Source: Bacillota bacterium
Lineage (GTDB): Bacteria > Bacillota > Dethiobacteria > Dethiobacterales > Dethiobacteraceae
Reading direction: 5' to 3'
Assembly (NCBI GenBank): GCA_012800795.1
Contig: JAAZIQ010000017.1
Span: 1-35,962 of the forward strand
DNA length: 35,962 nt
Part shown: positions 10,060-16,193 of the stretch, in pieces
How positions within the stretch are numbered: position 1 is the first letter of the stretch
How the letters are laid out: each line of letters starts with the position of its first letter
Position numbers and translations under genes: made by a program
The notes under the pieces: generated by a model
The model's input: the letters and a program-made list of their open reading frames with translations, nothing else
What the model was told of the DNA's origin: nothing
Databases searched by the model: none

Positions 10060-10650
10060 TTGAAAGAAAACTGTATTAAATCGTCTGTGGTAAAAAAAAC
10101 TGCGCCGCAGAAAGCAAAGCCTGCTGCGGTGCAGTTAGTATGCGGAAAGGAAGTAAGCAGTATTAGAAAAAGGGATTTTACTAAGGAAAATTTGCCTGAT
10201 ATTCCCATTGTACTTGCAAGGTTGGAGTTGGATCTTAGCGGTTACAATAAAGCTTTGGTTAGTTTGGACTTTTATACAATGCTTGAAGTTAGAGAAAGAG
10301 TGGGCCCCGGTGAAAATAGTTCCACCGGCTTAATTTTAAATTTTGCCCTGAGCAGAGAATGTGGCGGCAGAAGAGAAACCTTAAAAACATATCAGCAAAT
10401 AATCTTTATCGGTTTGGCTGCTGATGGAGACAGATATGATTTTCGGGATTCATTATATTTTATCTTTTGCGACGAACTTGCCTGCCGACAGGAGTGCTGT
10501 ATCTACACAGTGGAACTTGCGGGTATAGAGGTCATTGATCCCGCGAACGGGGAGGACGAAAATATTCATCGAGAGTTAAATATTGAGGATTCCGTGTTGA
10601 AAGCCATTATTCAAGAAACATCAATGCTTCAGCTGGGAGGCGTTAAATAA
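10060..10650 (+). CDS. DUF4489-like Cys-rich protein, single domain
   Basis: The 196-residue protein holds one copy (about residues 25-180) of a domain with CGKE at its start, PIVLARLELD, and near the end FCDELACRQECCIYTVEL. This order and the C-x3-CC pattern resemble the DUF4489 family of clostridial proteins, thought to form beta-rich, possibly spore-surface structures. There is no signal peptide. The start is TTG with GGCAGGAGAG upstream. It overlaps the next gene by one base (TAATG), so the two are translated together and probably form one assembly. Function is unknown. Confidence 0.75.
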   Translation: MKENCIKSSVVKKTAPQKAKPAAVQLVCGKEVSSIRKRDFTKENLPDIPIVLARLELDLSGYNKALVSLDFYTMLEVRERVGPGENSSTGLILNFALSRECGGRRETLKTYQQIIFIGLAADGDRYDFRDSLYFIFCDELACRQECCIYTVELAGIEVIDPANGEDENIHRELNIEDSVLKAIIQETSMLQLGGVK

Positions 10651-11732
10651 TGCAAAAACATAGCTTTTTGCCAGGCTATAAGCGAAAAGAGTGCTGCTTT
10701 GACCATGACAAACATTTTTTTTCTGAGCCGAAATTTGAAAAAACAAAAGGCATGATTATTGCCTGCGGTAAAGAAGTGCAAAGGGTGTGGAGAAGAGACA
10801 GACCTGGGGGAAACTTTGCAAGCAACCCCATTGTGTTGGCCAGAGTTGCCGTCGATACAAGTTTTTTAAATAGAGCTCTTGTGAAAATAGATTTTTCCAC
10901 TATAATCCAGATTATTATTACAGGCATTAATACTTTTGGTGCGGAATTGGATTTTCAATTGGTCAGAAACTGCCGCGGTGAAAGGGAAGTACTAAATAAT
11001 TATCAATATATAACAGATGTCCGGGAGGAAGTTTTTTGTAACCTCAGGCAGTCTTTTAGTTTTACCTACTGTGATGATGATATTTTCTGCCAGCGGGGCT
11101 GCTGCGTTTATTCAGTGGAACTTATTAACATCAATATTTTAGGAACCGGTCCTGAGGATCCGGTAATTGAACTGGGCATTGAAGATTCCGCCATCAGGGC
11201 AATTGCTCAGGGAATTTGTGAGGATGGGCAGATAGAAGCTCCTAGATATCCTGTTTGCCGGAATACTGCTTTAGTTTGCGGAAAAGAAAAAAATACAGTA
11301 GACAAAAGCCCTGTCACGTCCGAAGATCTTCGCTCTGATCCCATCATTTTGGCAAAGCTTTCCCTCGATGTAAATTGTACACATAAACCGCAAGTGATCA
11401 TAACTTTTTCAACTTTGATTCAAATAGAAGAGTCAGAAGAAGCGGGATTTACTGAAGGTGTGAAACTTAGTTTTCTCTTAAACAGAAATTGTAACGGTAT
11501 AGAAGAAGTACTAAGGGGATATGAGTATATTAAATTCATAGACAGAGCAGAAATATCGTATAGCCTGAAAAATGCCTTTACCTTTAACTTTTGTGATGAC
11601 CAATTAATCTGTACACAGGGCTGCTGTACCTATACAGTAGAACTTGTTGACATCGAAATCCTAGGCACAAACACTCTTATCGACCGACTCGTCATTGAGA
11701 ATTCAGCCATTAATGCCGTTTTATGTGATTAG
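10650..11732 (+). CDS. DUF4489-like Cys-rich protein, two tandem domains
   Basis: The 360-residue product contains two copies of the same domain as the preceding gene (about residues 37-190 and 207-358). Each starts with CGKE, continues with PIVLARVAVD or PIILAKLSLD and a FST stretch, and ends with FCDD or YCDD, then a GCC-Y-VEL motif. The N-terminal 35 residues are a separate His/Cys-containing tail (ECCFDHDKHFF). The tandem domains suggest a duplication from the single-domain neighbour. No signal peptide is seen, as for proteins assembled from inside the mother cell on spores, but that localisation is inferred. Confidence 0.75.
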   Translation: MQKHSFLPGYKRKECCFDHDKHFFSEPKFEKTKGMIIACGKEVQRVWRRDRPGGNFASNPIVLARVAVDTSFLNRALVKIDFSTIIQIIITGINTFGAELDFQLVRNCRGEREVLNNYQYITDVREEVFCNLRQSFSFTYCDDDIFCQRGCCVYSVELININILGTGPEDPVIELGIEDSAIRAIAQGICEDGQIEAPRYPVCRNTALVCGKEKNTVDKSPVTSEDLRSDPIILAKLSLDVNCTHKPQVIITFSTLIQIEESEEAGFTEGVKLSFLLNRNCNGIEEVLRGYEYIKFIDRAEISYSLKNAFTFNFCDDQLICTQGCCTYTVELVDIEILGTNTLIDRLVIENSAINAVLCD

Positions 11733-15289: not shown

Positions 15290-15414
15290 TCAAAAAAGCT
15301 GACACGAACGACTATTCTAAGAAATGTAATAGATTTGTTATGATTAAATATTTTTTAGTTATATAATGGATATGTAGGAAGCTTGTGACTTTAAATTTAA
15401 AGGGGGTTTATCAA

Positions 15415-16131
15415 ATGCCGGAGGAATTTAAACCAGGATGTCAGAGACCACCAATAAAAAAACCAAGTGACACAAATCAGGAAAATATTAATAATGTACC
15501 TAGGGAGGACAGGAGCATGCTTGTGAAAGTTGGAAAATCGGCTCCTAAGTTCGTTGCACCGGGATTTTACCATAACAAGTTTATGAATTTCAGCCTTGAA
15601 GAGTATTTAGGGAAATGGGTGCTGCTTTGCTTCTACCCGGGCGATTTTACTTTTGTCTGAGCAACTGAAATTTCAGCAGTTGCTGAAAAGTATGATGAGC
15701 TGAAGGAGCTGGGGGTTGAAGTTCTGGCAGTAAGTGTAGATAGTGTCTATGTCCATAAAATGTGGAATGATCATGAACTATCGAAAATGGTCAACAAAGA
15801 TATTCCTTTCCCTATGCTGTCTGATCAGGACGGCAGTATTGGTAAAATGTACGGTATTTACGATGAAGATTCCGGAGTTGAAACAAGGGGACGCTTTATC
15901 ATTGACCCGGATGGGGTAATACAGGGATTTGAAGTATTGGCCCCTTCAGTCGGCAGAAATGTTGCCGAAACAATTCGTCAGATTAAAGCATTTCAACTGG
16001 TGAGGGAATCGGAAGGTACAGAGGTTACGCCCTCCGGCTGGAAACCCGGCAAGAAAACTTTGAAACCCAATCCTGATTTAGTCGGCAATGTCTGGAAAGA
16101 GTGGAGCGTTAAGGAAGCTTTTAAGGAATAA
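15415..16131 (+). CDS. Selenocysteine-containing peroxiredoxin (in-frame UGA)
   Basis: Two open stretches in the same frame join across a single TGA at 15658-15660, which stands exactly where peroxiredoxins carry the peroxidatic cysteine: PGDFTFV-U-ATE, the PxxxTxxC motif. Downstream are SVDSVYVHKMW, GRFIIDPDGVI and GWKPGKKTLKP, so the AhpC/Prx fold is complete (238 residues with Sec). It reduces peroxides using a selenolate. The resolving cysteine usually found in EVCPxxWKPG is Thr here (EVTPSGWKPG), so resolution must come from another thiol. The start at 15415 follows AAAGGGGG; a second start at 15517, behind GGGAGGACAGGAGC, would give 204 residues, closer to the family length. A weak TATAAT lies at 15362. 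Confidence 0.88.
15658..15684 (+). promoter_or_regulatory. Sec UGA codon and SECIS-like hairpin
   Basis: Immediately after the UGA, GCAACTG (15661-15667) pairs with CAGTTGC (15677-15683) around a 9-base loop, and A15660/T15684 add an eighth pair. A bacterial SECIS lies just downstream of the UGA within the coding region, as here. An alternative palindrome CTGAAATTTCAG lies within the same stretch. SelB binding is inferred. Confidence 0.75.
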
Positions 16132-16154: not shown

Positions 16155-16193
16155 CAGCGCTTTGGTCAAGCTATCGGCCAAAGCGCTTTTTTA
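16155..16193 (+). terminator. Terminator of the Sec-peroxiredoxin gene
   Basis: AGCGCTTTGG (16156-16165) pairs perfectly with CCAAAGCGCT (16178-16187), followed by six T. It lies about 25 bases after the stop. Confidence 0.9.

Follow-up and report, generated by a model that had tools for sequence, protein, structure and literature searches.

A selenocysteine peroxiredoxin gene, prxU, with a conserved internal start that most likely gives a second protein form

The prxU Locus

The window, i.e., the whole stretch of 35,962 nucleotides that was analysed (contig JAAZIQ010000017.1 of assembly GCA_012800795.1, from a bacterium of the Dethiobacteraceae, Bacillota), carries a peroxiredoxin gene in which a single in-frame TGA occupies the place of the peroxidatic cysteine codon. 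The features of the locus that are referred to below are as follows.

15400-15407, plus strand: Shine-Dalgarno (SD)-like region, AAGGGGG, for the first start (ATG 15415)
15415-16131, plus strand: prxU, long form, 238 amino acids, selenocysteine (Sec) at residue 82
15415-15516, plus strand: N-terminal extension, residues 1-34, an arm with the GCxRP motif and Cys9, long form only
15439-15441, plus strand: Cys9 codon, TGT
15502-15508, plus strand: internal SD sequence AGGGAGG, assigned by SD energy against synonymous resampling
15517-16131, plus strand: prxU, predicted short form, ATG 15517, 204 amino acids, Sec at residue 48
15628-15630, plus strand: Cys72 codon, TGC, ten residues before Sec
15658-15660, plus strand: UGA read as Sec, peroxidatic residue 82, motif PGDFTFV-U-ATE, sole in-frame TGA
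15671-15688, plus strand: apical hairpin of the Sec insertion element (SECIS), UUUCAGC-AGUU-GCUGAAA, 10 nt 3' of the UGA, assigned by covariation
16027-16029, plus strand: Thr205 codon, ACG, at the site of the C-terminal resolving cysteine (EVCP) of AhpC
16156-16187, plus strand: intrinsic terminator 3' of prxU, a 12-pair stem with a T run, assigned by match to the consensus

The product of 15415-16131 matches the Pfam domains AhpC-TSA (131 bits) and 1-cysPrx_C (32 bits), with homology on either side of the TGA, and belongs to the NCBIfam PrxU equivalog (NF040737), scoring 395.3 bits against a cutoff of 270. The sequence TFVU at 15658 agrees with the TxxU pattern of PrxU, where UGA stands at the peroxidatic position. 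Among annotated relatives, prxU of Peptoclostridium acidaminophilum is the nearest, with 67% identity over the full length; the Sec-peroxiredoxin of this organism has been described as a selenoprotein (Sohling et al. 2001, cited in PMC13188914). The window gene is prxU, an ordinary member of an already known family of Sec-peroxiredoxins, and a thioredoxin-dependent peroxidase activity is predicted for its protein from the family. A phage origin was considered and discarded, as phage sequences were at most 45% identical among the matches listed.

Since a strong terminator follows prxU, the gene probably stands alone. A promoter-like sequence, GTGACA-17-AATAAT, is found at 15467-15495, within the extension and shortly 5' of the internal start, and may be due to chance. 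Elsewhere in the window, at 10060-11732, there are two neighbouring DUF4489 genes, the second of which has two matched stretches.

UGA Codon 82 and Its SECIS Element

In a first set of relatives, each of the 75 family members that cover the site has TGA there. The set was enlarged to 115 rows, of which four are Cys-type AhpC, and TGA was found in all of the remaining 111 rows of the Sec family. The relatives sampled are skewed to Bacillota and Thermodesulfobacteriota; with Spirochaetota, Acidobacteriota, Nitrospirota, Krumholzibacteriota, Chloroflexota and Synergistota, the Sec-family rows come from at least eight phyla. The original prediction, according to which a UGA replaces the peroxidatic cysteine codon and homology continues past it, is thus borne out on both counts: TGA is codon 82, and the Pfam and PrxU matches extend to either side of it.

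The original prediction also placed a hairpin directly after the UGA. Such a hairpin, GCAACTG/CAGTTGC at 15661-15683, does exist, and in the window sequence taken alone it is locally more stable than the helix at 15671-15688 (-7.7 versus -7.2 kcal/mol), but in relatives it is not maintained beyond what the protein constrains. As a SECIS candidate it was rejected: two wobble pairs are formed in 38 and 43 out of 81 sequences, which is near chance, about half of the rows do not form the two variable pairs, and the energy of -6.65 kcal/mol is not clearly above that of synonymous resampling (-6.41 +/- 0.14 kcal/mol).

The helix at 15671-15688 gave a different result. Its positions are paired in 95.7% of cells, and both sides of a pair are changed in 49 cells versus 12.7 in shuffled data; sliding controls were far lower. 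The mean energy is -8.14 kcal/mol versus -4.56 +/- 0.28 kcal/mol for synonymous resampling, and RNAalifold returns the same helix unprompted. The loop is GGUC in many relatives, as in the SECIS of E. coli fdhF. Apart from a chance match to an sRNA, no Rfam family was found on the element at E <= 1. Judged by these comparisons, the selected SECIS is the 15671-15688 helix, which overlaps the hairpin first proposed, and its covariation provides a clean model of the element for prxU gene finding.

A profile search of the genome retrieved selA over the family cutoff (581 bits). The selB gene is complete over two pieces, the ends of contigs C8 and C85 sharing 30 identical bases, and selD is present and itself has a Sec codon in KSAGUAAK. 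The selA-selB-selD operon is broken by the assembly (C8:4671-6541 and C85:9536-11921). A full tRNA-Sec was not found in the assembly with the Rfam model or with a pattern for the 5' half. Contig C43, at positions 1-28, begins with the last 28 bases (3' end) of selC, identical to those of a genome of the same genus, and the assembly break therefore falls inside selC. Matches to tRNA-Sec over the family cutoff were obtained in 22 of the 31 genomes searched, the same-genus genome included. The absence of selB or selC from the genome had been named as evidence against a Sec reading, and this is not what was observed: selA, selB and selD are all there, though of selC only the 28 bases at the contig edge are seen.

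Under translation table 11 the UGA at 15658 is formally a stop codon, and the gene would then be broken or consist of two parts. We consider the probability of this negligible against the presence of TGA in all family members from at least eight phyla, the intact frames on both sides, the conserved SECIS and the Sec machinery of the same genome. Taken together, the equivalog match, the universal TGA, the covarying SECIS and the sel genes strongly support the prediction of Sec at the peroxidatic position.

Cysteines and the Resolution Step

Typical 2-Cys peroxiredoxins such as AhpC have their resolving cysteine in the C-terminal EVCP motif; the window protein has Thr205 instead. In the original prediction the missing cysteine was read from this sequence. 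The whole PrxU family turned out to share the trait: nearly all members have Thr or Ala at position 205, and a few Met or Ile. The sole case of a cysteine at this position among the 111 rows is L074 (2537-3145), a short-form Sec PrxU whose SECIS stem contains a T-T mismatch.

Two other cysteines are conserved. Cys72 is kept in 110 of the 111 Sec members, and AhpC relatives of the Cys type have Phe in its place. The rows taken from the species collection overlap in part with those of the genome assemblies, and non-redundant counts of 75 and 78 genes are used where stated; Cys9 is present in all 78 non-redundant long genes and absent from members that have the short form only. In the structure model, Cys72 lies at the end of a strand (68-73) before the active-site loop, and residues 80-91 form a helix. 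Thioredoxin has a buried Asp26, and by analogy with it Cys72 could sit near Sec82. The conservation of Cys72 and Cys9 beside Sec suggests that they have a redox role.

The claim that the enzyme has no resolving cysteine therefore holds for the C-terminal site only; with Cys9 and Cys72 conserved, the absence of any resolving cysteine is not shown. Because both residues are nearly invariant, it is not established that an outside thiol is the sole resolving agent. In the assembly, which is 90% complete, no thioredoxin reductase scored over the TIGR01292 cutoff. One short-form PrxU, L150 (G066:C1:1602265-1602876), has neither Cys9 nor Cys72, and the one cysteine it does have belongs to the C-terminal tail (EPGC).

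It is possible, though less likely than not, that PrxU is a true 1-Sec peroxiredoxin, in which an outside thiol reduces the selenenic acid directly and Cys9 and Cys72 serve other functions or no function. The prevalence of Thr or Ala at the C-terminal resolving site, the lack of Cys9 in short-only members and of both cysteines in L150 are consistent with such an enzyme, as is the 1-cysPrx_C match, though this domain is also found in 2-Cys enzymes. Against it stand the retention of Cys72 in all Sec members but one, at a place where Cys-type AhpC has Phe, and the presence of Cys9 in all long members. L150 offers a naturally occurring test of whether an outside thiol can carry out the resolution.

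Two Probable Translation Starts

Most PrxU members carry an extension, about 35 residues long, that includes the GCxRP motif. The SD duplex of the first start has a mean energy of -11.33 kcal/mol in the family, and pN/pS is 0.29 in the core of the extension (residues 2-13), 0.85 in the linker and 0.20 in the body of the protein. Since the core shows purifying selection at the protein level and the first start has a strong SD, we conclude that the extension is translated.

A second SD lies within the coding sequence. Strong pairing at the internal ATG was found in 91 of the 91 long genes that have one, with a mean of -11.27 kcal/mol; the mean at other in-frame ATGs is -2.92 kcal/mol. Codons were then redrawn with the protein fixed and with each gene's own codon usage. 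The mean observed over 75 non-redundant genes is -11.26 kcal/mol versus -5.43 +/- 0.33 kcal/mol after resampling, and none of the 1000 resamplings was as low. At the internal SD, Lys is encoded by AAG in 59% of cases versus 37%, and Glu by GAG in 65% versus 32%. In L089 and L090 the SD is retained despite different residues (QGG replaces KE). The internal SD is followed by ATG, TTG or GTG in all 78 non-redundant long genes; three long genes have TTG or GTG rather than ATG. L145, a fast-evolving long gene, is without the internal site. The distance between SD and ATG is 11 nt in about a third of the internal sites and typically 6-9 nt at the first start. As can be seen, the internal SD and start codon are kept beyond protein constraint, as is expected of a two-start gene.

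Early-branching relatives mostly have the short form only, whose start coincides in position with the internal one and has a similar SD, and the arm is therefore not essential to the chemistry. From this distribution, the extension probably arose as an upstream addition, the old start remaining in use. The same relatives make it plausible that the internal site is an ancestral ribosome-binding site, and one could propose that only the long form is made today, the SD-like sequence being a trace of the ancestral start, a ribosome pausing site or the result of codon preference. We regard this as improbable: with synonymous sites saturated (pS about 0.83), an ancestral trace would be gone; codon resampling based on the usage of each gene never reached the observed SD strength; and neither the SD kept in L089 and L090 nor the start codon that invariably follows it in the non-redundant long genes is expected on these grounds.

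The sizes of the known protein bear on the opposite possibility. For P. acidaminophilum prxU, we computed 203 amino acids, Sec47 and 22.4 kDa from the internal start, and 240 amino acids, Sec84 and 26.6 kDa from the first one. The purified PrxU of E. acidaminophilum was reportedly a 22 kDa protein of 203 amino acids, equal to the computed short form, which speaks for a gene whose only product is the short form and whose upstream frame is an artefact or an untranslated leader. The equally strong SD of the first start (mean -11.3 kcal/mol) and the purifying selection on residues 2-13 at the protein level make such an arrangement very improbable. The Sec-peroxiredoxin of C. sticklandii is tabulated as Sec84 of 240 amino acids, i.e., as the long form (PMC3091704). 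Both forms seem to be present in the literature without remark, and nothing relevant on two starts in a peroxiredoxin was found in the literature searched.

Both the internal ribosome-binding site and, at the protein level, the extension are under selection, which argues for the use of both starts. We therefore consider it most likely, from sequence evidence, that prxU encodes a long form armed with Cys9 and a short form. What is new here is the conserved second start in prxU; the Sec-peroxiredoxin itself is already known. If two starts are indeed used, then genome annotations, family models and PrxU biochemistry each describe one isoform, and the recycling of a Sec-peroxiredoxin without the usual resolving cysteine becomes testable.

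A Model of PrxU Function

The best explanation of the data as a whole, which we judge likely in all its parts jointly, is a prxU gene with Sec82 inserted via the SECIS at 15671-15688, with Cys72 and Cys9 as candidate resolving residues and with two starts. By the sequence evidence, UGA codon 82 encodes Sec, its insertion being directed by the SECIS and supported by the selA-selB-selD genes of the genome. In peroxiredoxins the peroxidatic residue attacks the peroxide; by this established chemistry, Sec82 would attack it and become a selenenic acid. The latter may be resolved by Cys72, on the strand leading into the active-site loop, or by Cys9, on a flexible arm, rather than by a C-terminal cysteine, and a thioredoxin-like partner would then reduce the enzyme. 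Initiation at 15415 would give the long form, which carries the Cys9 arm, and initiation at 15517, from its own ribosome-binding site, the short form, composed of the catalytic domain with Cys72 only. Speculatively, the ratio of long to short form could set the number of armed subunits in what is likely a ring-shaped complex.

A broader proposal is put forward tentatively, as a real possibility rather than the expected outcome: in anaerobes of many phyla, a two-start gene may supply forms with a redox-active Cys9 arm and armless forms that assemble together, the ratio of starts setting resolution and electron flow. If such co-assembly takes place, the PrxU that has been purified and described is only one of two natural products.

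Comparison with Known Systems

The PrxU of P. acidaminophilum (Sohling et al. 2001; NF040737) shares with the window protein the peroxidatic Sec, the GCxRP arm as encoded in the genome and the equivalent of Cys72. It likewise lacks the EVCP cysteine and its gene has an internal SD and ATG; the two differ by sequence, at 67% identity. The protein that was described is reportedly the 203-amino-acid form, whereas the genome annotation and the family model hold the form of 240 amino acids.

With typical 2-Cys peroxiredoxins (AhpC/Prx1), the window PrxU has in common the fold and the active-site loop PxxxTxx(C/U); the best match among solved structures is 5zte, with a TM-score of 0.92 by target length. 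It differs from them in having Sec for Cys, no C-terminal resolving cysteine, and two further cysteines, Cys9 and Cys72. Human peroxiredoxin 4 has an N-terminal extension with an additional cysteine and keeps the C-terminal resolving one; it resembles the window PrxU in its cysteine-bearing N-terminal arm, the two arms having no shown sequence relation.

In the use of one frame for two proteins through an internal start, the proposed prxU is similar to Cas11b, ClpB, IF2 and CheA. Internal in-frame starts are known from bacterial and archaeal genes, those of ClpB, IF2 and CheA among them. Cas11b, too, is a protein produced from an internal in-frame translation start (PMC11899642).
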